Source: Candidatus Rokubacteria bacterium 13_2_20CM_69_15_1
Lineage (GTDB): Bacteria > Methylomirabilota > Methylomirabilia > Rokubacteriales > CSP1-6
Reading direction: 5' to 3'
DNA length: 45,477 nt
Assembly: GCA_001914535.1 (NCBI GenBank)
Contig: MNCR01000014.1
Coordinates: 1 to 45,477 of the forward strand
Shown one piece after another: positions 5,105-35,223 of the stretch. Each line of letters opens with the position of its first letter. Positions within the stretch are counted from its first letter, which is position 1. The notes beneath the pieces are model-generated. The model was not told the origin of the DNA and made no database searches. It saw only the letters and a program-made list of their open reading frames with translations. A program made the translations under genes and the position numbers.

Positions 5105-5299
5105 GTGCTCCTTCGCGCGACGGCGATCAGGGCAGAGGGCGCGACCGCCACGTCAGTCGTCGCTGGGCGGGAGACTACGTCATCGGGCGTTCTCGCACAA
5201 GGGCGGTCGCGCAGGCCTCCCTCTCGGGCCCGGACTTGCTCGCCGGCGAGTTCGAGCGTAGCCTAGGGCTGGCAACAAGCGCACGCTCACTCGTCGTAA

Positions 5300-7113
<1,814 letters not shown>

Positions 7114-8905: not shown

Positions 8906-9000
8906 GGTATCGGGGTCCGCGAGGCCGGCATCAACCGTAGGTGGCCTGAGAAAGGCACGCTCAGCTCCGTTGTATCGGGGTCCGCGAGGCCGGGATCACT
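8906..9000. repeat. Dispersed intergenic repeat, copy 1 (65-bp unit plus truncated second unit)
   Basis: gtatcggggtccgcgaggccgg occurs at 8907-8928 and again at 8972-8993 (65-bp period); unit body is similar to the copies near 11105, 16755 and 32336. Confidence 0.8.
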
Positions 9001-9004
9001 CGGC

Positions 9005-10078
9005 TCATTTGGCAATCGGGAGGAAGCAGGTCACGACGGTGCCACGCCCCGCGTCGCTCTCCACCTGGATGGCGCCGCGGTGCTCCTCGAGGATCCGGTG
9101 GCAGACGGCGAGCCCGAGCCCGAGGCCCTTGTCTTTCGTGGTGAAGAACGGGTCGAAGATCCGCGAACGTACCTCCGCGGGGATCCCGGCGCCCTCGTCC
9201 ACCACCTTGGCCTCGACCATGCTCCGCTGTCCCACGCCGAGGTCGATCTTGCCGAAGAGGGGGTTGAGGCTCACGCGGGTCGTGAGCGTCAGCCGCCCGC
9301 CGGACGGCATGGCGTCGATCGCGTTGCGCACGAGGTTGTGAAACACCTGGACGAGCTGGTCCTCGTCGCCGAGGATCGGCGGCAGGCTCGGGTCGTAGCT
9401 CCGCACCAGCGCGACCTTGCGCTCGCGGCATGCTTCCTCGTGGAGCATCGCGATGCGCTCCAGGAGCTGGTGAAGGTTGAGCGGCACCAGGCGCAGCTGG
9501 ACGGGCCGCGCCAGGTCGAGCAGCATCTCGATGATCCGGTTCACGCGGTCGACCTCGGTGAGGAGCACGTCCGTGTACTCGGCGAGCCGCGTGTCGGCCC
9601 CGAGCTCACGCTTCAAGAGCTGGACGGCGCCCCGGATCGCGCCGAGCGGGTTTCGCACCTCGTGGGCGAGGCCGACCGCCATGCGGCCGGCGGCGGCGAG
9701 CGTCTCGCCGCGCCGCACCTCGGCCTCGAGCTGGCGGACCCTGGAGAGGTCGCGCAGCACGCCGACGGCGCCCTCGACGCTCCCGTCGCGCGCGAAGAGC
9801 GGCGCGGTGACGAGGCTCACGGGCACCCGCCGGTTCTCGCCCCGGTCCACGAACCCCTCCGCCTCCGAGCGGCTCTCTCCGGTGGAGACCGTCTCGCCGA
9901 GGCGGCGCACGACGGAGGTGTCGGGCGGAAAGACCTCCTTGAGGTAGCGGCCCTCCGCCCGACGCGCCGAGCGTTCGGTCAGGACCTCGGCGGCCGCGTT
10001 CCAGAAGACGATCCGCAGGCTCGTGTCGACGGCGATCACCGCGTCGGGCAGGCCGGCGAGGACGCCTTCGTAATTCAC
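9005..10078 (-). CDS. PAS-domain sensor histidine kinase (NtrB/AtoS-like)
   Basis: 357 aa; H-box GLAHEVRNPLGAIRGAVQLL, N-box VFHNLVRNAIDAM, G-boxes; GTG start overlaps tsaD stop (GTGA). Confidence 0.94.
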   Translation of the reverse strand: MNYEGVLAGLPDAVIAVDTSLRIVFWNAAAEVLTERSARRAEGRYLKEVFPPDTSVVRRLGETVSTGESRSEAEGFVDRGENRRVPVSLVTAPLFARDGSVEGAVGVLRDLSRVRQLEAEVRRGETLAAAGRMAVGLAHEVRNPLGAIRGAVQLLKRELGADTRLAEYTDVLLTEVDRVNRIIEMLLDLARPVQLRLVPLNLHQLLERIAMLHEEACRERKVALVRSYDPSLPPILGDEDQLVQVFHNLVRNAIDAMPSGGRLTLTTRVSLNPLFGKIDLGVGQRSMVEAKVVDEGAGIPAEVRSRIFDPFFTTKDKGLGLGLAVCHRILEEHRGAIQVESDAGRGTVVTCFLPIAK

Positions 10079-11079
10079 GGCGCGAGCGCCATATCGGGTT
10101 GGGCGTTCATGTGGAGCGGGGCGCGCTCGCCGGCCTGAAGCCGCGCCGTCCCCGCGGCCGTGATCATCGCTCCGTTGTCGGTGCAGAGCCGCGGCGGCGG
10201 CACATGGAGGGCGACCCCGTGCTCGGCGGCCTCGGCGGCGAGTCCCGCGCGCAGCGGTCCGTTCGCCGCGACGCCGCCCGTGAGGACCACACGCTTGACG
10301 CCCGTGCGGAGCGCCGCCTTCACGGTCTTACGCACGAGCATCTTCACGACCGCGGCCTGGAACGACGCGGCGATGTCGGCGACCTGTCCAGAGGAGAGCG
10401 GCGCGTGGCGCTTCACGTGGAGCGACACGGACGTCTTCAGGCCGCTGAACGAGAAGTCCGCGGCGCCGTCGGTCATCTGCGCGAGCGGGAACGTGATCGC
10501 CTTCGGATCGCCGGTCTGCGCCGCCCGCTCGAGGGCGGGCCCGCCGGGAAACGGGAGCCCGAGGAGCTTGGCGACCTTGTCGAAGGCCTCCCCCGCGGCG
10601 TCGTCGCGCGTCTGGCCGAGCAGCGCGTACGCGAGAGGTGCGCGGGCGTGGTAGAGGGCGGTGTGGCCGCCGGAGACGACGAGGGCGAGGAACGGGTGGA
10701 GGGGCGGATCGTCGGTGAGGAACGCGGCGTAGATGTGGCCCTCGAGGTGGTTGACGCCGACGAGCGGCTTGCCGTGCACATAGGCGAGGGACTTCGCCAG
10801 TGAGCACCCGACGAGGAGCGAGCCCACGAGCCCGGGGCCCTGGGTGACCGCGATGCCGTCGAGGTCTGGGAGCCTCACGCCCGCGTCGGCGAGCGCCCGC
10901 TCGACGACCGGCACGATCACCTCGAGGTGCCGCCGCGAGGCGAGCTCGGGGACGACACCGCCGTACGGGGCGTGGAGCGCGTCTTGCGAGGCGACGACGT
11001 TGGACAGGATCCGGCGGCCGTCGGTGAGGACCGCCGCCGCCGTCTCGTCGCACGAGCTCTCGATCCCCAGCACGATCAT
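10075..11079 (-). CDS. tsaD: tRNA N6-adenosine threonylcarbamoyltransferase TsaD
   Basis: MIVLGIESSCDETAAAV, VNHLEGHIYA, LVVSGGHTALY; ATG at 11079 preferred over the longer ORF start at 11103. Confidence 0.96.
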   Translation of the reverse strand: MIVLGIESSCDETAAAVLTDGRRILSNVVASQDALHAPYGGVVPELASRRHLEVIVPVVERALADAGVRLPDLDGIAVTQGPGLVGSLLVGCSLAKSLAYVHGKPLVGVNHLEGHIYAAFLTDDPPLHPFLALVVSGGHTALYHARAPLAYALLGQTRDDAAGEAFDKVAKLLGLPFPGGPALERAAQTGDPKAITFPLAQMTDGAADFSFSGLKTSVSLHVKRHAPLSSGQVADIAASFQAAVVKMLVRKTVKAALRTGVKRVVLTGGVAANGPLRAGLAAEAAEHGVALHVPPPRLCTDNGAMITAAGTARLQAGERAPLHMNAQPDMALAP

Positions 11080-11104
11080 CCCGGGCGTCTCTCCCGTCCA
11101 CACA

Positions 11105-11167
11105 CGCAGCCGAACGTGCCTCGCTCAGGCCACCCACGGTTCGCGCCGGCCTCGTGGACTCCGCTAC
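11105..11167. repeat. Dispersed intergenic repeat, copy 2 (opposite orientation)
   Basis: cgcagccgaacgtgcctcgctcaggccacccacggttcgcgccggcctcgtggactccgctac aligns without gaps to the reverse complement of copy 1 (about 51 of 63 identical by hand count). Confidence 0.8.
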
Positions 11168-11239
11168 AAATGCCAAGGGCGACGCGGGCCGAGTCCACTG
11201 CCCCGGCCCGCATCGCCCTCGAGAAGAAGCGGCCGAAGG

Positions 11240-12484
11240 CTACTGCGGCCGGACCTGGCCCTGTAGATTTTGCGCCGGGCGCTGCTGCTCGATGATGCGC
11301 ATGGTCTTGATCACGTCGATCGCCCGCTGGACCTGGATGTCCTTCTTCAAGTCCTCGAGCGGGTCGAGGGACGGCTGACGCGCCGCCGCCTCCTTGGGCT
11401 CCTTGGGCAGCTCGACGACGATGTCCGGCGTGATGCCCTTGCCGTGGATCGAGCGCCCGTTCGGCGTGAAGTATTTCGCGGTCGTCAGCCGGAGCCCCGA
11501 GCCGTCCGAGAGCGGGATGATCGTCTGCACCGAGCCCTTGCCGAAGGTCTGCGTCCCGAGGATGATCGAGCGCTTCCAGTCCTGCAACGCCCCCGCCACG
11601 ATCTCCGACGCCGACGCGCTCCCCTGGTTCACGAGAACCACCATCGGCAGGGTCGGGTAGGACTTCTTGGCGTGCGCCGTGAAGCGCATGTTCTGGTTCC
11701 GCACCCGCCCCTCGGTGTAGACGACGAGCTTGCCGTCGTCGACGAACTCCTCCGTCACCTCGACCGCGGCCGTCAGCAGGCCGCCGGGGTTGTTGCGGAG
11801 ATCGAGGATGAGCGCCTTCATGCCGGCCTTGGTCGCCGTCTCGAGCGCGCCGGAGAGGTCGCTGGGGGTCTGCTCCTGGAACTGGCGGAGCTTCACGTAG
11901 GCGATGCCGCCGCCGAGATCGTGCGAGCGTACCGACTGGACCCTGATCTGCTCACGCGTGATCTCGAAATCCTTGGGCTCGGCCCAGCCCTCGCGGACCA
12001 CCGTGATCGTCACCTTGGTGCCCGGCTTGCCGCGCATCCGCTTGACGGCGTCCGGGAGCTGCATGTCCTTGGTCGAGAGGCCGTCGATCTTGACGATCCG
12101 GTCACCGGTCTGGAGTCCCACGCGGTACGCGGGCGTCCCGTCGATGGGCGAGACGACCGTGAGGACATCGTCCTTCAGCGTGATCTCGATGCCGAGCCCG
12201 CCGAAGCTCCCCGAGGTCTCCACCTGCATCTCGCGGTAGCTCTCGGGGTCGAGGAAGGAGCTGTGCGGATCCAGGCCGCGCAGCGTGCCCTTGATGGCGC
12301 TGTAGATCAGGTCCTTCGGCGGGACCTCGTCGACGTACTGGTTCTGGACGATCGAGAGCACTTCCGTGAACAGCCGGAGCTGCTCGTAGGTCGCGCCGTT
12401 GTCGGTGCCCTTGCTGGCCACGGAGCCGCCGAGCGACAGGGTGAGCACGACGAGGAGCGCGCCAATCACAAATGCCTTCTTCAT
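11240..12484 (-). CDS. S41 family C-terminal processing peptidase (CtpA-like)
   Basis: 414 aa; PDZ segment GLGIEITLKDDVLTVVSPIDGTPAYRVGLQTGDRIVKIDG and catalytic VLVNQGSASASEIVAGALQDWKR..GTQTFGKGSVQ. Confidence 0.95.
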   Translation of the reverse strand: MKKAFVIGALLVVLTLSLGGSVASKGTDNGATYEQLRLFTEVLSIVQNQYVDEVPPKDLIYSAIKGTLRGLDPHSSFLDPESYREMQVETSGSFGGLGIEITLKDDVLTVVSPIDGTPAYRVGLQTGDRIVKIDGLSTKDMQLPDAVKRMRGKPGTKVTITVVREGWAEPKDFEITREQIRVQSVRSHDLGGGIAYVKLRQFQEQTPSDLSGALETATKAGMKALILDLRNNPGGLLTAAVEVTEEFVDDGKLVVYTEGRVRNQNMRFTAHAKKSYPTLPMVVLVNQGSASASEIVAGALQDWKRSIILGTQTFGKGSVQTIIPLSDGSGLRLTTAKYFTPNGRSIHGKGITPDIVVELPKEPKEAAARQPSLDPLEDLKKDIQVQRAIDVIKTMRIIEQQRPAQNLQGQVRPQ

Positions 12485-12512
12485 AGATTCCCCCTCGAAT
12501 CCCTCTCTCGAC

Positions 12513-13718
12513 CTAACCCCGCTGCCGCAGCCACTCCGCCGGATCCTGTGGCTTCCCCTGATAGCGTACCTCGAAGTATAGCCGAGGGCCCGCCAGGGAT
12601 GCCGTATCCCCTACGGTGCCGATCCGCTGCCCCTGGCGCACGTCCTCGCCCTCCCTCACCTCGATCTCGGCGATGTGGGCGTAGAGCGTGTAGTACTCGC
12701 TGCCGTGGTCCAGGATAATCAGATTGCCATATCCCTTGAACCAGCCCGTGTAAATCACGTGGCCCGCGTAGACCGCCGTGACGTCCGTGCCTTCGGCGGC
12801 CTCGATGTCGACCCCATTCCGGAAAGTCCGGGTGCCGAATCGCGGGTGCACCTGGGCGCCGAACGGCACGACGATACGGCCGTCGGTCGGCCACGGGAGC
12901 CGCCCGCGGGAACTGCCGAACCCGACGCCGGGGGGCTCGATACCGCCCTTCGGCGGCGGCACTTTGGCCAGCTTCCGCTGCTTGGCGCCGAGTTCGCGGA
13001 TGAATGCTTCGAGTCGGCGGGAAGCTTCGGTGAGCTCGCCCACCACGCGCTCGTGGTAAGCGCGCTCGTCGCGCACCCTGGCAAGCAGTGTCCGCCGCTT
13101 CGCGGCGTCGCGGTCGACCTCCGCCTGCTCGCGCTGGGCGTCCGCGTGCAAGGCCGCCAGCTCCTGCTGGCGAGCCTCTTCGCGACCCTTGCGATCGGCG
13201 AGCCGTTCCGATGTCCCACGATACTCTCGAATCTGACGAGCGTCCAGGGCCGCCAGGCTCGCGAGGTGGCGCACCGCCGTCGCGCGCGTCACCGGGTCGT
13301 CGCCGCTCAAGATCAGCGGCAGGGCGCCGCCCTGCGCGTGCACCCGGTACATGACCCGGAGCCGCCGGGCGAGCGCCTCTTCTTGGCCCGCGCGGTGACC
13401 CTCGAGGCGCGCGACCTCGGCCCGCAGCGCACCGATGTCGGACCGCGTCCGCGTGATACGCACCTCGAGCCGGGCGACCTCCGCCTGCTTGTCGGCCAGG
13501 CGCTGGTCGATCTGCTCGAGCTCGGCGAGCAGCGAGGTCTCGCGCGCGCGCGCGGCCGCCGCCTTCTCGCGCTCTTCCTTGAGGCGCTTCTGGGTCTGCT
13601 GGAGCTTCTTCTGCTCGCCCTGAAGGGTGTCGTCGCGCTTGGGCTGCGCGCCCAGAGGGATCGCGACCGCGACCAGCACGGCGAGCAGCACGAGGACAAC
13701 GGGGAGGGGCCGGGGCAT
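12513..13718 (-). CDS. Murein hydrolase activator EnvC-like protein (coiled coil + M23/LytM)
   Basis: MPRPLPVVLVLLAVLVAVAIPLGAQPKRD start; coiled-coil repeats; LytM region PFGAQVHPRFGTRTFRNGVDIEAAEGTDVTAVYAGHVIYTGWFKGYGNLIILDHGSEYYTLYAH. The longer ORF to 14453 runs antisense-style through ftsX and is not used. Confidence 0.93.
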   Translation of the reverse strand: MPRPLPVVLVLLAVLVAVAIPLGAQPKRDDTLQGEQKKLQQTQKRLKEEREKAAAARARETSLLAELEQIDQRLADKQAEVARLEVRITRTRSDIGALRAEVARLEGHRAGQEEALARRLRVMYRVHAQGGALPLILSGDDPVTRATAVRHLASLAALDARQIREYRGTSERLADRKGREEARQQELAALHADAQREQAEVDRDAAKRRTLLARVRDERAYHERVVGELTEASRRLEAFIRELGAKQRKLAKVPPPKGGIEPPGVGFGSSRGRLPWPTDGRIVVPFGAQVHPRFGTRTFRNGVDIEAAEGTDVTAVYAGHVIYTGWFKGYGNLIILDHGSEYYTLYAHIAEIEVREGEDVRQGQRIGTVGDTASLAGPRLYFEVRYQGKPQDPAEWLRQRG

Positions 13719-13723
13719 CGCGC

Positions 13724-14602
13724 TCACGATTTCGCGCGGGCGAGCCAGCCGCCGAGACCGCCCATCAGCGCGCCCGCGAGCATCAGGGCGACGAGGTTCG
13801 CCGGAGACAGGAAGGCGAGGCTCCCGAGGCCGAGCGTGAGGTTGACGAGCGGCTCGAGGCTCGGCGCCACGACGGCGTGCGTCGCCACGAGCGCGGTGAG
13901 CGCCAGGACGGCGCCGATCAATCCCTGCATCGTCCCCTGCAGGAGGAGCGGGAGCCGGATCGTCGTCTCGCTGGCCCCGACGAGGCGCATGATCTCCGTC
14001 TCCTGTCGGCGCGCGTGGAGGATCAGCGTCGTGGCCGTCGTCACCGTGAGGAACGCCGCGACCGCCAGCACGGCCCCGATCCCGAGCCCGATGGTCGTCA
14101 GGAGCCGCTGCCACTGCGAGAGCCGCTCGACCCAGTCCGCGCTCCCGGCCACCTCGTCCGCCTCGGGGAGCGACGAGAGGCGCTCGAGGAGCGCGCGCGC
14201 GCCCTCGGGCGTGGCGGCGTCCGCCGCGGGCGTCACCTCGAGCGAGGCCGGCAGCGGGTTGACGGGAAGCTGCGCGACGACACTCGCGTCCTTGCCGAGA
14301 AGCTGCTTCAGGGAGGCGAGCGCATCGGCCTTGCTGATGTAGAGGACCCCGGCGACGCCCGGGACCGCCTGGACGCGCGCGACGAGAGCCTGGGCCTCGC
14401 GGGACGCGGGCTCGCGCTTGAGGTACACGATGATGCGCACCCGCTCCCGCCACTGGGCCATCGCGCGCTCGAGGTTCAGCGAGAGCAGCCAGAACCCGCC
14501 CAGCGCCGCGAGGGAGAGCGTGATCAGCACGATCGCGCTCACGGCCACGCGCCCGGCCCGCCGGAGATCCCGCACCGCCTCGCCGATCAGGAACCCTAGC
14601 AC
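13724..14602 (-). CDS. ftsX: Cell division protein FtsX (permease-like)
   Basis: 292 aa; MLGFLIGEAVRDLRRAGRVAVSAIVLITLSLAALGGFWLL; adjacent to ftsE. Confidence 0.93.
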   Translation of the reverse strand: MLGFLIGEAVRDLRRAGRVAVSAIVLITLSLAALGGFWLLSLNLERAMAQWRERVRIIVYLKREPASREAQALVARVQAVPGVAGVLYISKADALASLKQLLGKDASVVAQLPVNPLPASLEVTPAADAATPEGARALLERLSSLPEADEVAGSADWVERLSQWQRLLTTIGLGIGAVLAVAAFLTVTTATTLILHARRQETEIMRLVGASETTIRLPLLLQGTMQGLIGAVLALTALVATHAVVAPSLEPLVNLTLGLGSLAFLSPANLVALMLAGALMGGLGGWLARAKS

Positions 14603-14606
14603 GCCG

Positions 14607-15287
14607 TCAGCCCTCGTCTTTCACGACCCGTCCACCCTCGAGCGTGATCGTCCGTCGCCGGAGCGCGCGCGCGAGGTAGGCCTGGTGCGTGGCGAGCACG
14701 ACCGTCGTGCCGCCCGCCCAGATGTCCCTGAGCACGGCGAGGATCTCGTCCTCCATCGTCTCGTCGAGGTTCCCCGTCGGCTCGTCGGCGAGGAGGAGAG
14801 GAGGCCGGCGCACGATCGCGCGCGCGAGCGACGCGCGCTGCGCCTCGCCCTGCGAGAGCTGAGCCGGGTACGCCTGGGCGCGCGCCGAGAGGCCCACGAC
14901 GCGGAGCGCGTCGAACGCGCGCTGGGTGATCTCGCGCTTGGGCGTCCCCAGCACACGGAGAACGAAGGCGACGTTCTCGTAGACGGTACGGACCGGGAGG
15001 AGCTTCGCGTCCTGGAAGACGACGCCGATCGACCGCCGGAGCGCGGCCACCTCGCCGCGCTTGAGCCTCCCGAGGTCATGGCCGAGCACCTCGATGTCGC
15101 CCTCCGAGGGGAGATCGTCACGGTAGAGGAGCCGCAGCAACGTCGTCTTGCCCGCGCCGGAGGGTCCGGTGAGGACGACGAACTCGCCCTTGTCGATCCG
15201 GAGGGAGACGTCGCTCAGCGCAGGGACCTTCACGGGCCCGACCGAGTACACCTTCCAGACGCGATGAACCTCAATCATGGCGGGCAC
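14607..15287 (-). CDS. ftsE: Cell division ATP-binding protein FtsE
   Basis: 226 aa ABC ATPase; GPSGAGKTTLLRLLYRDDLPSEG, LSQGEAQRASLARAIVRRPPLLLADEPTGNLD; likely start at MIEVHRVWKVY. Confidence 0.95.
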   Translation of the reverse strand: MPAMIEVHRVWKVYSVGPVKVPALSDVSLRIDKGEFVVLTGPSGAGKTTLLRLLYRDDLPSEGDIEVLGHDLGRLKRGEVAALRRSIGVVFQDAKLLPVRTVYENVAFVLRVLGTPKREITQRAFDALRVVGLSARAQAYPAQLSQGEAQRASLARAIVRRPPLLLADEPTGNLDETMEDEILAVLRDIWAGGTTVVLATHQAYLARALRRRTITLEGGRVVKDEG

Positions 15288-15307
15288 TTCGATTATAGCG
15301 GCCCGCC

Positions 15308-16783
15308 TCAGATTTTAGAGAGCTTCTCCTCCAGGAGCCGGTTGACGACGCCGGGGTTGGCTCGGCCGCCCGTCGCCTTCATCACCTGGCCGACCAACGC
15401 CTTGGCGGCCGCAGTCTTGCCTCGCTTGTAGTCCTCGATCGCCTTTGGATTCTCGCTGAGGACCCGGTCGATCACCGCGCCCACCGCCGCCGCGTCGGCG
15501 ACCTGCGTCAGCCCCTCGCGGCGCACGATCGTGGGTCCATCCTCGCCGGAGCGGACCATCTTCTCGAAGACGTCCTTGGCGATCTTGCCGCTGATCGTCC
15601 CGTCCTCGATGAGTGCGAGGAGCCCGGCGAGGCGCACGGGGGTGATCGTGGAGCTCCCGATCGCACGCTCGTCGTCGGCCCCGAGCTCTCGCAGGAGCTC
15701 GGACATGACCCAGTTGGAGACGATCTTCGGCTTCGGAAACTCGCGCACCGCGGCCTCGAAGTAGTCGGCGAGCGCCCGGCTCTGCGTGAGGATCTCCGCG
15801 TCGTAGGGCGGCAGGCCGTACTGCGCGACGAAGCGCGCGCGCCGCGCGCGCGGCAGCTCGGGGAGGCCCGCGCGGAGCTCCTCCACCCAGACGCGGTCGA
15901 GCGTGAGCGGGACGAGATCCGGCTCGGGGAAATAGCGATAGTCGTGCGCGGACTCCTTCGAGCGCATCGAGCGCGTCGCCCCCTGGTCGGCGTCCCAGAG
16001 GCGCGTCTCCTGCACGATGCGCTCGCCGGCCGCGAGGGCCTGCGCCTGGCGGCGCACCTCGAACTCGAGCGCCAGCTTCACGTTCCGGAACGAGTTCATG
16101 TTCTTGATCTCGACCTTCGTACCGAGCTCGCGGGAGCCGCGCGGCCGGAGCGAGACGTTCGCGTCGCAGCGGAGCGACCCCTCCTCCATATTGCCGTTCG
16201 AGACCCCGAGATAGACCAGGACCGCCCGAAACGCCTTGAGGTACGCCGCCGCCTCGTCAGGCGAGCGGAGGTCGGGCTTGGAAACGGTTTCCATGAGCGG
16301 GACGCCCGAGCGGTTGAAATCCACGAGGCTCGCCCGGGCGGTCTCGAGCGTGCCCTCGTGGAGGAGCTTGCCGACGTCCTCCTCGAGGTGGAGACGCTCG
16401 ATGCCGATGGTGCGCGACGCACCATCGACCTCGATGTCGAGCGAGCCGTCTTCGGCGAGCGGCTCTTCGTATTGGCTGATCTGGAAGTTCTTGGGCATGT
16501 CCGGGTAGTAGTAGTGCTTGCGCGCGAAGCGGCACGCGGGGTTCACTCGACACTTGAACGCGAGCGCCGTGCGGATGCCGAACTCGACCGCCCGGCGGTT
16601 GACGACGGGGAGCGCGCCGGGCATCCCCTGGCAGACCGGGCACGTCTGGCTGTTCGGCGGCGCGCCGAAGGTCGTCGGGCAGCCGCAGAACATCTTCGAG
16701 CGCGTGCTGAGCTGTGCGTGGACCTCGAGCCCGATGACGACCTCCCAGTCTGTTGGACCGGGGTCCGCGAGTCCGGTTCTCAC
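15308..16783 (-). CDS. gatB: Asp-tRNA(Asn)/Glu-tRNA(Gln) amidotransferase subunit B
   Basis: 491 aa; DWEVVIGLEVHAQLSTRSKMFCGCP, CPVCQGMPGALPVVN, YYYPDMPKNFQISQYEEP; first ~12 residues lie in the repeat. Confidence 0.97.
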   Translation of the reverse strand: MRTGLADPGPTDWEVVIGLEVHAQLSTRSKMFCGCPTTFGAPPNSQTCPVCQGMPGALPVVNRRAVEFGIRTALAFKCRVNPACRFARKHYYYPDMPKNFQISQYEEPLAEDGSLDIEVDGASRTIGIERLHLEEDVGKLLHEGTLETARASLVDFNRSGVPLMETVSKPDLRSPDEAAAYLKAFRAVLVYLGVSNGNMEEGSLRCDANVSLRPRGSRELGTKVEIKNMNSFRNVKLALEFEVRRQAQALAAGERIVQETRLWDADQGATRSMRSKESAHDYRYFPEPDLVPLTLDRVWVEELRAGLPELPRARRARFVAQYGLPPYDAEILTQSRALADYFEAAVREFPKPKIVSNWVMSELLRELGADDERAIGSSTITPVRLAGLLALIEDGTISGKIAKDVFEKMVRSGEDGPTIVRREGLTQVADAAAVGAVIDRVLSENPKAIEDYKRGKTAAAKALVGQVMKATGGRANPGVVNRLLEEKLSKI

Positions 16784-16870
16784 GGAAGGTGGCCTATCCG
16801 AGGTGCGGTGTGGCTCCGTAACTCGGTTCTCACCGGAGGTGGCCTGTCCGAGGTGCGGTGTGGCTCCGTT
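16755..16870. repeat. Dispersed intergenic repeat, copy 3, containing a 50-bp tandem duplication
   Basis: cggttctcacggaaggtggcctatccgaggtgcggtgtggctccgt at 16774-16819 is nearly repeated at 16824-16869 (period 50 bp); flank gaccggggtccgcgagtccgg matches the end of copy 1. Confidence 0.8.
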
Positions 16871-16873
16871 CGC

Positions 16874-18328
16874 TCATGCCCCGCTCGGCCTCCGCGCGCG
16901 CCACGGGGTCGCCTGCTCGTACGCGTACGCGGCGCGCAGGACGCCGGCCTCGTCGAGCGCTCGGCCGATGAACTGCAGACCGATCGGCAGCCCCCCGGCG
17001 CTGAACCCGCACGGCACCGAGATCGCGGGGAGCCCCGTCATGTCCGCCGGGACCGCGAAGACGTCGTTCAGGTACATCGAGAGCGGGTCCTCCTTCTCTC
17101 CGAGCTTGAAGGCGACGTTCGGCGTCATGGGCGCGACGATCAGGTCCACGCGAGCGAACGCCGCGTCGAAGTCGCGGCGCACGAGCGTCCGCACCTTCTG
17201 GGCGCGGCCGTAATACGCCTCGTAGTATCCCGCCGAGAGCACGTAGGTGCCGAGCATGATCCGGCGCTTGACCTCGGCACCGAAGCCCGCCGCGCGCGTG
17301 CGGCTCGACATGCCGATGAGATCCTTCGCGCCGGCGACGCGCAGGCCGTACTTCACGCCGTCGTAGCGCGCGAGGTTCGACGAGGCCTCCGCGGGGGCGA
17401 TCACGTAGTAGGTCGCGAGCGCGTGTGGCGTCGCCGGGAGCGAGACGCGCTCGACCGTGGCGCCGAGCCCCCGCAGCACGTCCACCGCGACGCGGACGGC
17501 GCGCTCCACCTCGCCGTCCATGCCCTCGATGAAGTACTCGTCGGGGAGGCCGAGCCGGAGTCCTCGCACGCCCTGCGCGAGCGTCGCGGCGTAGTCGGGC
17601 ACCGCCGCGGTGAGGCACGTCGCGTCGCGCGGGTCCGCCCCGGCGATCGCCCGGAGCAGGAGCGCCGTGTCCGTGACATCCCTCGCGAACGGGCCGATGT
17701 GGTCGAGCGAGGAACCGAACGCGACGAGCCCGTAGCGGGAGACGCGCCCGTAGGTCGGCTTGAGCCCCACGATGCCGCAGAAAGCGGCAGGCTGGCGGAT
17801 CGAGCCGCCCGTGTCGGTGCCGAGCCCTCCCGCGGCGAGGCCCGCGGCGACCGCGGCGGCGGGACCGCCCGACGAGCCGCCGGGGACGCGCGCGAGGTCC
17901 CACGGGTTCTTGGTCGGCTTGAACGCCGAGTGCTCGGTGGAGGAGCCCATGGCGAATTCGTCCATGTTGCCCTTGCCGAGCATGACCGCGCCCGCGGCGG
18001 CGAGGCGCTCGACGACGGTCGCGTCGTACGGCGGCACGAAGCCCTCGAGCATCCTGGAGCCGCAGGTGGTCGTGACCCCGCGCGTGCAGAGGACGTCCTT
18101 GTAGACGAGCGGCGCGCCGTCGAGCGGACCGAGCGGCTTGCCCGCCCGGTAGCGCGCCTCCGCGTCGGCGGCGGCCCGCAGCGCGGCCTCGCGTGTCACC
18201 GTGAGGTAGGTGCCGAGCTCGCCGTCGAGCTTCGCGATCCGCGCCAGGAAGGCCTCGGTCGCCGCCGTCGGCGTCGTCTCGCCGCGGCGATACGCCTCGG
18301 TCAGCTCGTGGATCGGTCGCCCGGTCAC
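16874..18328 (-). CDS. gatA: Asp-tRNA(Asn)/Glu-tRNA(Gln) amidotransferase subunit A
   Basis: [27 protein letters not shown] from GTG at 18328; amidase signature [36 protein letters not shown]. Confidence 0.97.
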
Positions 18329-18330
18329 CC

Positions 18331-18624
18331 TCAGTCCTCGAGGATCCGCGGGACGCGGAAGAACTCGCCGACGCGGTCGGGCGCGTTCCGGAGCATCTCC
18401 TCCGGGGCGAAGCACGGCACGACCTCGTCGTCGCGCATCACGTTGACGAGCGGCACGGCGTGCGACGTCGGCTCGACGCCGGTGACGTCGAGCGCCTTGA
18501 GCCGGTCGATGTAGGTCAGGATCGAGGTGAGCTGCGCACGCATCGTCTCGAGCTCGGCTTCACTCAGCTCGAGCCGCGCGAGCCGCGCGACGTGCAGCAC
18601 CTCGGCCGGCGTGATGGACGGCAT
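18331..18624 (-). CDS. gatC: Asp-tRNA(Asn)/Glu-tRNA(Gln) amidotransferase subunit C
   Basis: 97 aa [59 protein letters not shown]. Confidence 0.95.
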
Positions 18625-21600: not shown

Positions 21601-21851
21601 ATCCCGAGCGGCGCCAGCAGCGCCTCCACCCGCCGCGCCATCTCGCCGGCCGCCTTGTTCGTGAACGTGACCGCGAGGACGTTCTTCGGGTGCACCCCGC
21701 GCACGCTCAGGAGCCACGCGATCCGGTGGGCGATGACGCGCGTCTTCCCACTCCCGGCGCCCGCGAGCACGAGGAGGGGCCCGTCGCCCGCCGTCACGGC
21801 ATCGCGCTGCGGCGGATTCAGATCGGCGAGAAGGGCGTCGCGGTCCAGCAC
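18624..21851 (-). CDS. uvrD: UvrD/PcrA-type superfamily 1 DNA helicase containing an in-frame intein
   Basis: 1075 aa; Walker A [84 protein letters not shown]; flanks rejoin cleanly if 20022-21089 is removed. PcrA vs UvrD naming not resolved. Confidence 0.95.
   Translation of the reverse strand: [1075 protein letters not shown]
20022..21089 (-). mobile_element. Intein (356 aa) inserted between GDADQ and SIYRWRGA of the helicase
   Basis: Starts with Cys in [28 protein letters not shown] (block A), TPNH block B, ends [21 protein letters not shown] then Ser +1; 1068 nt, in frame. Confidence 0.95.
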
Positions 21852-21957
21852 CAGGCGATTGTACCGTATGCCGGACGGCGCCTCGTGGGCGGTGATGCGA
21901 CGACCGCGGCGGCCCGCACCGATCGATCGGCCCCCGGGCGCGCGTGGGGGCCGCGGT

Positions 21958-23738
<1,781 letters not shown>

Positions 23739-23740
23739 GG

Positions 23741-25120
23741 CTAGACCTCCGGGCTCTTGTGCTTCTTGGCCTTCCGTGCCGTCCAGCCTTCCTTGACGAC
23801 CTGCGCGCCACGCCCGACCGCGAGCGCGCCCGGCGGCACGTCCTTCGTGATGGTCGAGCCGGCGCCGATGTAGGCGCCCTCGCCGATCGTGAGGGGGGCC
23901 ACGAGGCTCGAGTTGGTGCCGACGAACGCGCCGTCGCCGATCGTGGTCGCGTGCTTCGCGACGCCGTCGTAGTTGCACGTGACCGTGCCGGCGCCGACGT
24001 TGACGTCGGCGCCCACGGTCGTGTCGCCGACGTAGGAGACGTGCGGCACCTTCGACCCGCGACCGATGCGCGACTTCTTGAGCTCCGCGAAGTTTCCGAC
24101 CTTGGCCTTCTGCCCGATGTGGCACCCGGGGCGGAGGTGGCAGAAGGGGCCGAGCGTCGCGCCGTCCTCGACCACGGCTTCGGCGATGATGCAGTAGGGC
24201 TTGAGCGTGACGCGGTCGCCGAACCGGCTCGCCGTCACGTGGCTGCCGGACCCGACGACGCACTCGGTCCCGAACGTCGTCACGCCTTCGAGGACGACCT
24301 GCGGGTACACGACGGTGTCGGGACCGAGCGTGACCGTGTCCTCGATGTACGTGCTCGCGGGGTCGACGATGGTGACGCCGTCGGCCATCAGGCGGTCGAG
24401 GATACGGCGGCGCAGGATCGCCGCGACGGCCGCGAGCTGTCTTCGGTCGTTGATCCCGAGCGCCTCGACCGGATCCGGGGCCGTCACCGCCTCGATCCGG
24501 CCGCCCGCCTTGGCCAGGATGCCGATGACGTCCGTCAGGTAGTACTCGCCCTGATCGTTGTCGGTCCGTACCTCGGCGAGCGCCGGCCAGAGGCGCCGCG
24601 CGTCGAAGCAGTAGATGCTCGTGTTGATCTCGGCGATCTTCTTCTGGTCGTCGGTGGCGTCCCGGTCCTCGACGATGCGCCGCACGCGGCCGTCCTGGCG
24701 CAGGATGCGCCCGTAGCCCTGGGGACGGTCCGCGACCGCGGTCAGGACCGTGGCCGCGGCGGCCGTGGCCTGATGATGACCGACGAGGTGCTCGAGCGTC
24801 TCGCCCGAGAGCAGCGGCATGTCTCCGGCCAGGACCACGATGGGCCCGCTGCCACACGCGCCTCGCGCCTGCCCGAGGGCGTGGCCCGTGCCGAGCCGCT
24901 CGCGCTGTTCGACGAATGTGACGCCGTCGCCCGCGGCGGCGCGCACGTCGTCGGCGTTCGGCCCGACGACCATGACGACCCGGTCGGCGATCGCGCGCGC
25001 CGTCCGGAGCGCGTAGGCGATCAGCGGGCGGCCAGCGAGCGGGTGGAGCACTTTGGGCTGCCGGGAGCGCATCCGCTTGGCCTCCCCAGCGGCGAGAATG
25101 ACCGCGGTCACCCCGTCCAT
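23741..25120 (-). CDS. glmU: Bifunctional UDP-GlcNAc pyrophosphorylase / GlcN-1-P acetyltransferase GlmU
   Basis: [38 protein letters not shown]; left-handed beta-helix hexapeptide repeats and acetyltransferase core [34 protein letters not shown]. Confidence 0.97.
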
Positions 25121-25157
25121 GGGATCCTCATGGGTTCTTATCCTACACCGTCGCCGG

Positions 25158-26108
25158 CTAGGGGGTGTTGCGTAGGTGAGACAGGAGTCGCTCGATGCGG
25201 GCCGGCATCGGCGACTCGAACTCTTGCGCGCGTCCGGTGGCCGGATGAATGAACGCCAGGCGCACGGCGTGCAGGGCCAGGCCCTCGAGCGGCGTCGGGA
25301 GCGGCTCGCGGCGCCTGCCTCCATACACGTCGTCGCCGGCGACGGGGTGACCGAGCGCGGCGAGGTGCACGCGGATCTGGTGCGTGCGTCCGGTCTCGAG
25401 GCTCACCTGGAGGAGCGTGAAGCCGCCGAAGCGCTCGAGCACCCGGTACCGGGTCACCGCCCGCTTGCCCTGGCCCGCCGGGCGCACGGCCATCTTCACG
25501 CGGTCGTGCGGGCGACGGCCGATCGGCCGGTCGATCACGCCGTCGTCCGCGCGCACACGGCCGTGGACGACCGCGAGATAGCGCCGTGTCACGCTCCGTC
25601 GGGCGAGCTGAGCCACGAGCGCGTCGTAGGCCAGCTTGCTCTTGGCGACGACGAGCAGACCGGAGGTGTCCTTGTCGAGCCGGTGGACGATACCCGGGCG
25701 CCGCGGCCCGCCGACGCCCGCGACCGCGGGCGCGTGGGCCAGGAGCGCCGCGGCGAGGGTGGCGCGCGCGTGACCGGGGCCGGGGTGGACGACGACGCCG
25801 GGCGGCTTGTCGAGGACGAGGACGTGCGCGTCCTCGAACACGATCGAGAGCGGCGCCGGCTCGGGGACGAGCTCCTCGACGGCGGGCGGCGGCACGTCGA
25901 CCTCGACTCGCTCGCGCCCCGCCAGCCGCGCCGCGGCCTTCCGGACAGCGCCGTCGACGCGGACGCGGCCGGCCTCGATCAGCGCCTGGAGCCGCGCACG
26001 CGAGAGCCCGGGCAGCCGCTCGGCGAGCCAGCGGTCGAGCCTCGACCCCGCCGCGGCGGGGTCGACGGCGAGCCTGACGAGCCCGGGCGCAGCGGAGGCC
26101 GCCCTCAC
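25158..26108 (-). CDS. rluD: RluA/RluD family pseudouridine synthase
   Basis: 317 codons from GTG 26108 (GTGA overlap with lspA stop); S4 domain [32 protein letters not shown]; active site motif [18 protein letters not shown]. Confidence 0.92.
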
Positions 26109-26599
26109 GGGCGCGGCGCGGACGCGCCCTCGCCGAGGAGACGGATGGCGAGCACCGTCACGCCGACGGTGATCGCGGAGTCGGCGACGTTGAACGCCGG
26201 CCAGTGCCACCCGCGATAGTGGACGTCCACGAAGTCGATCACCGCGCCGAAACGGGCGCGGTCGATCAGGTTGCCGATGGCCCCGCCGAAGATCAGGCCG
26301 ATCGCCCCGTGATCGGCGAAACCGCCGCGAGGCAGGATCCGCAGGGCGACGCGGACCAGGATCACGAGCGCGACGAGTGACAGGAGCGCGACGATCCAGC
26401 GCCATTCCGTCGGCACGCTCGCGAGGAGGCCGAAGGCGAGGCCCGGGTTGAGCACCAGCGTCAGCGCCAGCACGTCGTCGATGACGCGGACGGGCGCGCC
26501 CGGGACGAGCCGGGCCAGCGCGATCAGCTTGGTGATCTGGTCGAGCACGACCACGACGCCGGCGAGGACGGCGACGCGCGTGGTCGCCGGCCGCGTCAT
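26105..26599 (-). CDS. lspA: Lipoprotein signal peptidase
   Basis: [27 protein letters not shown]..; conserved [46 protein letters not shown] overlap with ileS. Confidence 0.97.
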
Positions 26600-29439
26600 C
26601 CTCGCCCGAGGACGACCGGCACGCAGCGCTCGCAGAGCCCGGGGTGCTCCCGGCTCTCGCCGACCCGCTCGCTCCACGTCCAGCAGCGCTCGCACTTCCG
26701 GCCGCGCGCCCGGTCGACGCCGATGACGAGGCCGGGGATCTCCTGGCTCTCGTACTGCACGGCCGCGCTCGCGCGCGCGCCGCCGAGCTCGACCTGCGAC
26801 ACGATGAACAGCGTGGGCAGGAGGGCGCGCTTGGCGCGGAGCAATTCCGGCAGGTCCTCGGGCGCCGCCGCGATGCGCACCCGGGCCTCGAGCCCGCTGC
26901 CGATCAGGCTCTGCGTGCGGGCGGTCTCGAGAGCCTTGGCAACCTCGCGGCGGACCTCGAGCAACCGCGCCCACTCGCGCGCCAGCGTGTCGTCGAGCCA
27001 CTCACGCGGGACCTCCGGGAATCGCTCCAGGTGGACGCTCTCGCCCTTGACGCCGGGCGCGTGCCGCCACGCCTCCTCCGCGGTGAACGTGAGGATCGGC
27101 GCCATGAGGCGGGCGAGCGCACTGAAGATGTCGTGGCACGTCGTCTGGGCCGCTCGCCGCCGCGGGTCGTCGGCCGCCGAGGTGTAGAGGCGGTCCTTGA
27201 TGATGTCCAGGTACTGCGCCGAGAGGTCCACGGCGCAGAAGTTGTGCACGGCGTGGAACACGGTGTGGAACTCGTACGTCTCGTAGGCGCGCGTGACACG
27301 ACCGACGAGCCGGCCGAGGCGATCGAGGATCCAGCGGTCGATCTCGTCGAGTCGCGCGGACGACTGACGGTCGCGCGCCGGGTCGAAGTCCGCCAGGTTC
27401 CCCAGGAGGAATCGGAACGTATTGCGGATGCGGCGGTAGGCGTCGGCGAGGCGATCGAGGATCTCCGTCGAGAAGCGGATGTCCTGCGTGTAGTCCTCGG
27501 CCGCCGCCCAGAGCCGCAGGATCTCGGCGCCGTACGTCCGGAACAGCTCGTCGAGCGTGCCGTAGTTGCCGAGCGACTTGGACATCTTCCGGCCGTCACC
27601 GTCCACCACGAACCCGTGGGTCAGGACGCTCTTGAACGGGGGTCGCCCGCGCGTGCCGATCGCCTCGAGCAGCGAGGACTGGAACCAGCCGCGGTGCTGG
27701 TCCGAGCCCTCGATGTACATCTCCGCCGGCCACTTCAGCTCCGGCCAGGTCTCGAGGACCGCCGCGTGGCTGCACCCGGAGTCGAACCAGACGTCGAGGA
27801 TGTCGGTCTCTTTCGCGAACCGCTCGCCGCCGCACTTGGCGCAGCGCGTGCCAGGCGGCAGCAGCACGGCCGCCTCGCGCGCGTACCACTCGTCGCCGCC
27901 CTGGCCCTCGCGGAAAATCCGCGCGACATGCTCGACGATCCGCTCCTCGAGGAGCAGCGTGCCGCACGCCGCGCAGTAGAACGCGACGATCGGCACGCCC
28001 CAGACGCGCTGGCGCGAGATGACCCACTCGGGCCGGTGCGCCACCATGTTGTAGATCCGCTCCTCGCCCCACCCCGGGATCCACTGCACGTCGCGCTTGA
28101 TCGCCTCGAGCGCACGGGCGCGGAATTGGTGCTTGTCGAGCTCGATGAACCACTGCTCGGTTGCGCGGAACAGCGTCGGATTCTTGCACCGCCAGCAGTG
28201 CGGGTAGGTGTGATCGAGCGCGCGCTCGGCGACGAGCATCCCGATCGATCGGAGATGGTCGATGATCCGTGGGTTGGCCTCCCACACGGTGAGCCCCGCG
28301 AAGTGCTCCACGCCAGGGACGAAGCGCCCGTCGTCGTCCACGGGGTTGAAGATCGGCAGCCCGAGCGAGCGACCGAGGTCGTAGTCCTCCTCGCCGTGAC
28401 CGGGGGCGATGTGGACGAGGCCCGTCCCCTGGTCCATCGCCACGAAGTCCGCCGCCGCGATCGGGCCCTCGCGGTCGATCCACGGGTGGCGGAACGTGTG
28501 GCCGACGAGCTCGCGTCCGTCGAAGGAGGCGAGGGCGTGGTGCGCCGGGTTCTTGAAGAGCCCCAGAAAGTCGTTGAGCCGCGCGCGCGCGACGACGTAG
28601 ACATCCGCAGACTGCCCCGGCACCTCGACGGCGACGTAAGGCTGCGTCGGGTGGACGGCGATCGCGAGATTGGCGGGCAGCGTCCACGGCGTCGTCGTCC
28701 AGATCACCGCGAAGGCGCGCCGGCCGGCGAGCGCCGCCTGGAGCGGGGCCGGCGCCGACACGAGCGGAAACTTCACCCACACCGAGGGCGTCCGCTGGTC
28801 CTCGTACTCGACCTCCGCCTGCGCCAGCGCGGTCTTGCAGTGCATGCACCAGTGCACGGGCTTGAGCCCTTTGTGGACGAGGCCCCGGCCGACGAAGCGG
28901 CCGAACTCGCGCGCGATGATCGCCTGGTAGGCGGGCGCCATCGTGACGTAGGGGTTGTCCCAGTCGCCGAAGACACCCAGGCGCTTGAACTCGGCGCGCT
29001 GGATGTCGATGAACCGGAGCGCGTACTCACGGCACTTCCTGCGCTTCTCGACGGGATCCATGGCGCGCCGCACGTCCCCCGAGGCCTGGTCGAGACCGAG
29101 CTCCTTGTCGACCTGATGCTCGATCGGCAGACCGTGACAGTCCCAGCCCGGGACGTAGACCGCGTTGAAGCCGAGCATCGTGCGCGACTTCACGATGACG
29201 TCCTTCAGGACCTTGTTGAGCACGTGGCCCAGGTGGATATTGCCGTTCGCGTACGGCGGGCCGTCGTGCAGGATCCAGAGCGGGCGATCCGCGGCCACGT
29301 GGCGGAGGCGCTTATAGATCCCGAACTGCTCCCACCAGGCGAGCATCGTCGGCTCTCGCTCCTGGAGGTTGGCCTTCATGGGAAAGGCGGTTTTCGGCAG
29401 GTTCAGCGTGGCTTTGTAGTCCATGGTCAGATCACGCAT
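26596..29439 (-). CDS. ileS: Isoleucyl-tRNA synthetase
   Basis: 947 aa; HIGH-type [32 protein letters not shown]-terminal zinc site CERCWTW..CERCVPV; likely start [25 protein letters not shown]. Confidence 0.98.
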
Positions 29440-29475
29440 CGTACCACGCCGCGCGAGAGCGACGGCCGCCGGGGA

Positions 29476-30105
29476 TTACTTGATCTTGGGCGCCAGGGTG
29501 GCGATGCCGTTGTCGGAGTCGATCGAGACCTTGAACTGGTCGAGGAAGTCACGTCCGAGGAGACCGTCCACCGCTCCCTGCTCGATGTCGTGCGCAACGA
29601 CCAGGAGGTCGATGACCTTCGCGTCGCCGATCTCGAGGGATTCGAGCGCTGCCGTCTGCACGCTCGCGGACCCCGTCGCGCCGCGAATCTGGCCCGTCGG
29701 CCCTTCGGTCAGGGACACCCCGGCCTCCGTGAGCGCGCGGGGGTTGATCACGGTCCGGTCGGCGCCGGTGTCGAGGATCAGCTTCACGGAGGTGCCGCCA
29801 TTGATCGTCGCGTCCACGACGATCGCCTGCCCCTTCGTGAACCTGATCTCAGTAGCGGCCGGGCCCTCGGAGGCGCCCGTCTCCGCGGACGTCCTCGACG
29901 ACCCCGGCGCCCTCCTGAGATCGAAGGGCGCCGCCGCCGAGCGGTACTTCTGGGGGACGCTGTCGATGCCCTGGACGAAGTGGGGCACGCCGCGCTCGTC
30001 GACCCAACGATAGATCGGGGCGTCGGCCGGTGCGGGACGAGCCAGGAGCAGGGTCGCCGCGACGAGCACCGCCAGTCGAATCATCGCGCGAATCATACCG
30101 TACAA
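29476..30105 (-). CDS. Secreted protein with DUF4124-like N-terminus and retropepsin-like aspartic protease domain
   Basis: Signal peptide; APIYRWVDERGVPHFVQGIDSVPQKYR; VVDATINGGTSVKLILDTGADRTVINPRAL (DTGA active-site motif). Confidence 0.8.
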   Translation of the reverse strand: MYGMIRAMIRLAVLVAATLLLARPAPADAPIYRWVDERGVPHFVQGIDSVPQKYRSAAAPFDLRRAPGSSRTSAETGASEGPAATEIRFTKGQAIVVDATINGGTSVKLILDTGADRTVINPRALTEAGVSLTEGPTGQIRGATGSASVQTAALESLEIGDAKVIDLLVVAHDIEQGAVDGLLGRDFLDQFKVSIDSDNGIATLAPKIK

Positions 30106-30173
30106 ACCGGTCGACGCGAGAGGGTTGCCGCGAGGTCAGAGCGACGCGGTCGGCGTGGGCACGGCCGGGCGGA

Positions 30174-30368
30174 TTACGACGCCTTCTTCTCCTCTTCCTT
30201 TTTCACGGCAGCCGTCGAGTCGTCCTTTGACGTCTCGCTGACGCCCTTCTTGAACTCCTTGACGCTCGATCCCAGCGAGCGCGCCAGATCCGGCAGGCGG
30301 TTGGCGCCGAAGAGGATCAACACGATCACGAGGATGATCAGCAACTCCTGGTAGCCCAGTCCAAACAT
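30174..30368 (-). CDS. tatA: Sec-independent translocase TatA/TatE family
   Basis: 64 aa [50 protein letters not shown]. Confidence 0.93.
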
Positions 30369-30405
30369 GAGAGGCTCCTTTCAGCGCCTTCACCATACTC
30401 CGCGC

Positions 30406-32307
30406 CTACCCGCCCCGCAAGACCCGCTTCTCGCCCATCCGGACCGTCACCCGGCGAGCGTCCAGGTACTCCAGGAGCGGGATCGCGTACTTGCGGGAGA
30501 TCCCCAGGAGGTCCTTGATATCGCCCGGCCCGATCTCCTTCCGCTCGCGCAGGAGCGCCACGACCTTGTCCTGGATCGCGTCCAGTGCCGCGGCGTGGAA
30601 GTAGAGCGACTCCTTGACCCGTACGAGCCTCTTGCCCTCGACGAGGAATTGAAAGAGTTCGTGCTCGTCGCCGCCGCTCACGCCGGCGTGGCCGAGCGCT
30701 TCCTCGGGACTCGGCGGCGACGCCTCGGCCTTGACGAACTCCTGCTCGACGCGGTCCACGATCCGCTGCTGCTCCGGCGTCAGCCGCACCTGGTGCGCCG
30801 CGAGTCGGATCTTGTCCCGGTCGGTCGCCACCACGCCCTCGCTCAGGAGCCCGGCGACCAGCGCCGCGAACACCCGCTCGTCGGCGCCGCCGGCGCGCAC
30901 CCGGAGCTCCTCGCGCGACATCCCCGGCTTGAGCGGGTTGGCGCGGTGGAAGGCCTCGAGCGCCGTGAGGGCCTGCCCCCGGAGGCGCGCCGAGCTCTCG
31001 GGATGGAGGTACCACTCCCGCTCGACGACGAGGACCCGGCCCTGCGCCACGAGGTGGTCGAGCACGCCCCGGAGCTGCTCGGGCCCGAAGGGCACTCGGC
31101 CGAGCAGGGTCGCCAGGCGCGTGCCCGCGGCGCCGACGTGGCGCACGTGCTCCTCGACGACCTCTGCGGGGCTGCCTGTCTGCAGGAGACCGAGGTGCGC
31201 CGCCAGCGCCGGCGCCTTGCGTTTGAAGCGCGGCGGATTCACGTCGAGGATCGTCCCGCCCCCGATCGTCACGACCGGCGAGTACGAGCGCACGACGAAC
31301 CGGTCGCCGGGAAGCGCGACGAGCGGCGCCTCCAGGCGGAAGCGCGCGAAGGCCGTCTGGCCCGGTTCGAGCTCGGCCGTATCCAGGAGGAGGACGCGGG
31401 CCATGATCTCGCGGGTCCCGACGTGAAAGCGGACGCGGGTGCGCGACTTGATCGCGCGCGGGGCGTCCCCGAGGAGCTCGAGCGTCCCGTCCACGAGCAC
31501 CGTGGGGACGAGCGTGCCGGCGAGGCCGACGACGTCACCGCGCTCCACCGCCGCCCGCTCCACGCCTTGCAGATTCACCGCGGTGCGCTGGCCCGCGAAC
31601 GCCTCCGTCACCGGATGGCCGTGCGTCTGCAGGCCCCGGATCTTCGTCTCGACGCCCCCCGGATAGACCTGGACGCGATCGTCCACGGCGAGCCTGCCCC
31701 CCCTGAGCGTCCCGGTGACGACGGTGCCGAAGCCGCGCACGGTGAACACGCGGTCGATCGGCAGGCGCGGGAGCTGGTCCAGACTGCGTGGCTCCACCGC
31801 CTCCGCGAGCCGTCGGAGCGCCGCGCGAAGCTCGGCGAGGCCGTCACCGGTCTTCGCCGAGACGGCGAGGATCGGCGCGCCCGCGAGGAACGTGGCGCGC
31901 ACGAGCGTCCCGACGTCGTCCCTGACGAGCTCGAGCCAGTCGGGGTCGACGAGATCGGTCTTGGTCAGGACCACGAGGCCGCCCTTGATGTGCAGGAGCG
32001 AGCAGATCGCGAGGTGCTCACGTGTCTGCGGCATCACGCCCTCGTCGGCGGCGACGACGAGCATCGCCAAATCGATGCCGCCGACGCCGGCGAGCATGTT
32101 CTTGACGAAGCGCTCGTGCCCGGGCACGTCGACGATCTCGATGGTCGGGCCCGGGGGCTCCTCAAGAAACGCAAACCCGAGGTCGATGGTGATCCCGCGC
32201 GCCTTTTCCTCGGGCAGGCGGTCGGTGTCGATGCCGGTGAGGGCTTTCACGAGGGCGGTTTTGCCATGGTCGATGTGACCCGCCGTCCCGACGACGACGT
32301 GCTTCAT
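30406..32307 (-). CDS. selB: Selenocysteine-specific elongation factor SelB
   Basis: [49 protein letters not shown]; winged-helix C-terminus; next to selA and tRNA-Sec. Confidence 0.97.
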
Positions 32308-32308
32308 G

Positions 32309-32405
32309 GTCGTTCCCGGGGGGGCCGCGGGGGCCGCGTCAACCGCAGGTGGCCCGAGAACGGCACGCTCGGCTCCGTGGTGGCGCGGGCCGGGTGCACG
32401 GTGTG
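32309..32405. repeat. Dispersed intergenic repeat, copy 4 (core 32336-32377 plus degenerate second unit)
   Basis: gcgtcaaccgcaggtggcccgagaacggcacgctcggctccg closely matches copy 1 gcatcaaccgtaggtggcctgagaaaggcacgctcagctccg; sits between selA and selB. Confidence 0.8.
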
Positions 32406-35125: not shown

Positions 35126-35223
35126 TGGCGGAAGCGTATGGGAGTCGAACCCATCGACCGTTTGTCTAGAACGGTCCACCGGATTTGAAGTCCGGGAGGC
35201 CCACCGGGTTCCTAGACGCTTCC
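35126..35223 (-). tRNA. selC: tRNA-Sec (anticodon TCA), CCA encoded
   Basis: Minus strand: GGAAGCGT (8-bp acceptor) ... CCGGACTTCAAATCCGG (anticodon arm, TCA) ... GACCGT/ACGGTC long variable arm ... ATGGGTTCGACTCCCAT ... ACGCTTCCGCCA; ~98 nt. Confidence 0.96.

Follow-up and report, generated by a model that had tools for sequence, protein, structure and literature searches.

The stretch of DNA analysed here (45,477 nt of contig MNCR01000014.1 from Candidatus Rokubacteria bacterium 13_2_20CM_69_15_1, assembly GCA_001914535.1; hereafter the window) raises the question of how a short repeat comes to lie between genes at four of its loci, and what keeps it there. An initial annotation had described an element of ~63-65 bp between a histidine kinase (HK) and a response regulator (RR) gene, between ctpA and tsaD, between gatA and gatB, and between selA and selB, and had taken it for an uncharacterised intergenic family that fills the spacers between genes. 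Judging from sequence comparison, we consider it probable that these are dispersed short insertion repeats (units of ~65 or 87 nt, frequently in tandem) at the ATGA/GTGA overlaps of co-directional genes, retained as translated mini-cistrons that would preserve termination-reinitiation coupling between the genes on either side.

Distribution of the repeat family

All four copies are present, and chance is excluded as the source of their likeness, dispersed copies within the organism's own genome reaching a blastn E value of 1e-13. The gapless match proposed for the first two copies (about 51 of 63 positions) holds in slightly refined form, 8907-8970 being 81% complementary to 11104-11167 over 64 nt (~52/64). 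A 64-nt consensus finds at least 52 places in the own genome at E<=1e-3 (blastn), iterative nhmmer applied to the first 29 fetched regions and the window recovers 81 copies in 45 arrays, and a sequence-only model (R1) lists up to 95 matches in the own genome, with comparable numbers in several relatives; these model counts are minima, 88 candidate stretches at most having been scored in each genome. The own assembly amounts to 2.8 Mb in 146 contigs and is 76% complete, and the copies are spread over dozens of contigs rather than confined to this one. Among 57 genomes of the same Rokubacteria-like family 40 bear the repeat, patchily by genus, while the model search found it in none of the 38 other genomes of the phylum. 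The window's TsaD has its best named relative in Candidatus Rokubacteria 13_1_40CM_69_27 (85% identical). The family remains uncharacterised as far as Rfam is concerned, as no match to the repeat exceeds the gathering score in the window or in 68.6 kb of repeat-bearing loci, and the only Rfam matches in the window are a thiamine pyrophosphate (TPP) riboswitch and a selenocysteine tRNA. A literature search, whose scope left out most subscription journals, returned nothing relevant on Rokubacteria repeats or on repeats at stop/start overlaps.

Placement at gene junctions

The element does fill spacers, as had been proposed; however, most copies lie outside ordinary non-coding space and often replace 4-nt ATGA/GTGA overlaps, and the purely intergenic description missed both that they run with the genes and that they carry mini open reading frames (mini-ORFs), which lead from the stop of the upstream gene to the start of the next. 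Arrays with two co-directional flanking genes run along them in 48 cases, versus 4 in the opposite direction. In many arrays the TGA of the upstream gene falls within the left ATGA of the element, at a fixed offset from its core, and the downstream ATG often stands at +3, three bases past the core. Filled sites typically read ATGA-element-ATG, with the upstream stop and the downstream start both retained.

Orthologous junctions that lack the element are often bare 4-nt ATGA/GTGA overlaps. At a glycosyltransferase pair the junction is a bare ATGA in genomes G001, G002 and G003 and is 65 nt longer in G000, and the presence of the insert in G000 alone among these four congeners suggests a gain in its lineage. 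The empty site is ATGA at nuoL/nuoM (G002), at a cofC junction (G003 and G006), at a dihydropyrimidinase junction (G001 and G010) and at gatA/gatB (G008, G009); it is GTGA in G001 and ATGA in G012 at HK/RR, and GTGA at selA/selB (G003, G013, G043). Among repeat-free close co-directional pairs at the same loci, 89/297 are 4-nt overlaps. ATGA flanks many filled sites on both sides and occurs once in empty sites; tandem units also contain ATGA, and a target-site duplication is therefore indistinguishable from sequence carried in with the element. In the best reading the element was once mobile.

A relay of reading frames across the inserts

An insertion of this kind would convert ATGA into ATGA-element-ATG(A), in which the left copy would supply the upstream stop and the right copy the downstream start. 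A ribosome finishing the upstream gene would restart at the AUG of the left ATGA and read into the element, and the mini-ORF would close with a TGA that shares bases with the downstream AUG, and there the ribosome would restart once more. Termination-reinitiation coupling could thereby survive an insertion of 56-260 nt, with the peptide irrelevant and only the phase and the lack of premature stops mattering. Coupling at overlaps is widespread (PMC6728339), and in tests in E. coli and Haloferax almost none of it is left once ~20 nt separate the stop from the start (PMC10666635); given this limit, an insert of at least 65 nt should break the coupling of the gene pair unless a relay spans it.

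A relay was scored where the frame opened by the ATG of the left ATGA leads, in one step or via further ATGA/GTGA steps, to a TGA that overlaps the start codon ATG of the downstream gene, and expected values were taken from 1-2 nt deletions or from shuffling. The discovery set held 37 arrays (21 in the own genome, 15 orthologous and one of an unrelated repeat in G005), and the replication set, under the same rule, 32 arrays at loci that had played no part in forming the idea. Among arrays with an xTGA upstream stop, strict relay is observed in 22/29 of the discovery set, against 6.9-7.2 expected (shuffle p ~3e-12), and in 19/27 of the replication set, against 3.5-8.1 expected (shuffle p ~2e-9); pooled, 41/56 carry an unbroken chain of 4-nt overlaps. 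With a tolerance of ±8 nt the figures rise to 26/29 and 24/27, the latter against 5.2-10.0 expected. Compared with repeat-free control spacers of at least 40 nt, repeat spacers more often have an xTGA upstream stop (44/61 vs 14/72) and a relay within 8 nt (41/61 vs 10/72). A Shine-Dalgarno-like motif precedes only 7/69 of the element-fed starts, and a strict test finds in-frame fusion to the downstream gene in none of the 37 discovery arrays and in 3 of the 32 replication arrays.

The most serious rival holds that the element is an ordinary parasite, resembling repetitive extragenic palindromic (REP) sequences or miniature inverted-repeat transposable elements (MITEs), with an intrinsic ATGA target and a 65-nt unit that is by chance both open and of suitable length, so that the relay is passive and unselected. 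The sequence is indeed common to the copies, short units most commonly measure 65-66 nt, a length of 65 by itself gives the relay, and ATGA recurs between tandem units. Yet the relay holds across many insert lengths (56-260 nt for inserts with a single mini-ORF) and three entry frames, the GGCCACC block being read in all three (41, 12 and 6 occurrences), and this spread argues that the relay frame is not simply inherited. Moreover, deletion of 1-2 nt in the controls breaks the relay, and orthologous hemC arrays that differ in length (87, 130 and 211 nt) all still relay. We regard the passive account as unlikely. A simple fixed-frame model is disfavoured as well, three frames being in use.

Several observations weigh against retention of the repeats as coupling mini-cistrons. 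The relay p-values are optimistic, because the arrays are related sequences, and the assignment of gene starts and stops relied on codon statistics and homology. Exceptions to the pattern include the inverted tsaD copy, the selA/selB copy, several with TAG or TAA upstream stops and the few in-frame downstream fusions. Some empty orthologous junctions are not overlaps (e.g. murD, nrfD), and the patchy filled and empty patterns may mix losses with gains. Last, no transposase was identified for the element, a search of the repeat-rich genomes for PF01797 coming back empty.

Stop/start overlaps are very common in bacteria, and selection on their coupling is hard to test; the insertions constitute a natural experiment replicated at dozens of operons. 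As lineages have retained a path for the ribosome with compensating lengths and frames, it can be argued that coupling matters for fitness. We infer translation of the mini-ORFs, a selective cost of lost coupling, and selection that keeps the relay, from the sequences themselves. Such a relay would also offer repeats a route to spread within operons without breaking them.

Unit structure and conservation

Two kinds of unit have a common core of the form CGnnCCT..TCRGGCCACCCACGG..CCGGCCTCGCGGACCCCGnTACAATGA. Short units begin AATGAnGCC and have a period of 65 or 66 nt, and long units begin GGAATGAGAAGCGACATGCGGAACGGAGCC with a period of ~87 nt; tandem units are frequent. At three loci (L200 and L204 in G002, L351 in G001) a second repeat (GACTCACTCAGGCTCGCCTCGCGCGTCGGACGCGCTGCGGCTTCGCAC, approximate) is nested within the element, right after TCTCAGGCC, and is sometimes duplicated.

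The core is conserved at the level of nucleotides and not of codons, which bears directly on whether the family might be a repeated small-protein gene with a functional peptide. An open frame of ~22-30 codons, in which the motif SGHPRxxPASRTPIQ recurs, would speak for such a gene, but the nonsynonymous/synonymous ratio comes to 1.16 in the frame that most copies use, third positions do not exceed the others in variability (0.151 vs 0.19), three frames are used, and the peptide matches nothing in NCBIfam and nothing credible in Pfam; we find this possibility highly improbable. A match to PF12551 (30.5 bits) proved an artefact, in which a 13-residue match is counted repeatedly in a triplicated peptide.

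Regulation at the level of RNA, whether by a terminator, attenuator, processing site or promoter, could account for the GC-rich composition, the TACAAT-like right end and the orientation along the genes. However, the consensus fold is negligible (RNAalifold energy ~-1; z-scores of ~-0.1 and +0.2, both strands being covered), the columns with the strongest covariation by mutual information include no compensatory pairs, and Rfam gives no match. The TACAAT end was rejected as a promoter of the downstream gene because the bases that would form the -10 box run into the ATG. We attach very little weight to this class of explanation.

Relation to known repeats

Being short, dispersed, extragenic in appearance and sometimes paired, the copies might be taken for REP/REPIN elements mobilised by a REP-associated tyrosine transposase (RAYT), a link that the initial annotation had proposed to look for. 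Nevertheless, repeat-rich genomes (G000-G003, G006, G010, G013) are without a Y1_Tnp gene (PF01797), and a conserved hairpin is lacking. PF01797 is present elsewhere in the phylum, which indicates that the search works, and mobilisation by a RAYT or IS200-605 transposase was accordingly rejected; the REP/RAYT account strikes us as extremely unlikely. Conserved terminal inverted repeats, which a MITE would carry, are likewise absent from the alignment and the covariation scan. REP/REPIN systems with a RAYT (PMC3116915) also have many short copies in extragenic positions, and it is in the missing RAYT, the missing hairpin and the placement at stop/start overlaps that the present family departs from them.

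The closest known relatives in spirit are the Rickettsia palindromic elements and other MITEs that bear open reading frames (PMC2229807, PMC10969869), which are likewise small, dispersed, non-autonomous and tolerated in a coding context with the frame kept open. The Rickettsia elements, however, are palindromic and fused in frame inside one open reading frame, whereas the present units mostly form one or more mini-cistrons of their own between two genes and have no conserved palindrome. With termination-reinitiation at ATGA overlaps (PMC6728339, PMC10666635) the common principle is the overlapping stop and start at which a ribosome restarts; the known cases are direct gene pairs, whereas in the present family the two genes are separated by one or more mini-ORFs carried by the repeat, which would relay the ribosome.

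Unrelated repeats occupy comparable positions. G005, which belongs to another genus and is without the main family, carries at several loci (18 places by blastn) a dispersed tandem repeat, ATGAGCGCTTGCGCGAAGAGGCC..., with units of ~45-63 nt that start at ATGA and, where observed, end near the next start codon (L266, L320, L323, L328, L330); at its dihydropyrimidinase junction three units run from the upstream ATGA and end TAG-AA-ATG. A palindrome-rich repeat, GGGGGGCGAAGCCCCCC, also unrelated to the main family, occurs at an HK/RR junction in a named Rokubacteria genome (L045), at L131 and at L241. In the L045 insert a frame of 52 open codons leads from the ATGA to a stop that falls exactly within the ATGA of the RR gene, and at L131 (G014) the repeat extends gatB in frame at its N-terminus. 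These samples are small, and they suggest that the relay constraint is general in this lineage. It is possible, and we put it forward tentatively, that 'translation-relay insertions' are a distinct class of repeat, steered to ATGA/GTGA overlaps through the choice of target, through selection or through the two together, which has arisen more than once (the main family, the G005 ATGAGCGCTTGCGCGAAGAGGCC repeat and the palindrome-rich HK/RR insert), with an unrecognised ATGA-targeting transposition system behind at least the main family.

Copies in the window

The features of the four loci are collected in Table 1. From HK to RR the predicted relay takes in two mini-ORFs and includes a single step of 2 nt, and from gatA to gatB it proceeds by ATGA, GTGA and GTGA overlaps, the GTG start of gatB lying inside the element. 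Two 50-nt sub-units at gatA/gatB (16774-16819 and 16824-16869) are 93% identical. The right-end ATG of congeners is ACA in the own-genome gatB element, and with the gatB GTG at 16783 within the repeat, the N-terminus of GatB would be repeat-derived. Annotators should be warned that such spacers probably contain mini-ORFs that are translated and that determine in what context genes like gatB truly start.

Table 1. Repeat copies, predicted mini-ORFs and flanking genes in the window.
Feature	Position	Strand	Remark
RR gene	7475-8905	-	
HK/RR mini-ORF 2	8902..8958	-	GTG 2 bases past mini-ORF 1 stop; final TGA overlaps RR start (CCATGACG)
Full repeat copy between HK and RR	8906..8969	-	right end '...CCCCGATACC' abuts RR ATGA start
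HK/RR mini-ORF 1	8961..9008	-	ATG overlaps HK TGA (AAATGAG); 15 codons; ends AGC-TGA
Partial tandem copy	8972..9001	-	right-end block CCGGCCTCGCGGACCCCGATACA, directly after HK stop
HK gene	9005-10078	-	
Inverted copy, ctpA/tsaD spacer	11105..11167	+	upstream of tsaD; true spacer, no stop/start overlap
gatA/gatB, two tandem units	16757..16857	-	gatA stop TGA at 16874-16876
gatA/gatB mini-ORF 2	16780..16833	-	starts in GTGA of mini-ORF 1; ends in second GTGA, whose GTG (16783) is the gatB start
gatA/gatB mini-ORF 1	16830..16877	-	ATG overlaps gatA TGA; ends in GTGA overlap
Degenerate copy between selA and selB	32320..32377	-	selA ends TAG (32424), selB ATG at ~32307; no strict relay

Apart from the repeats, the TPP riboswitch (RF00059, 60.4 bits) lies at 5292-5401, upstream of a + strand open reading frame at 5392-7113. 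The selenocysteine tRNA (RF01852, 69.8 bits) at 35130-35223 stands near selA/selB, making this a compact selenocysteine locus.
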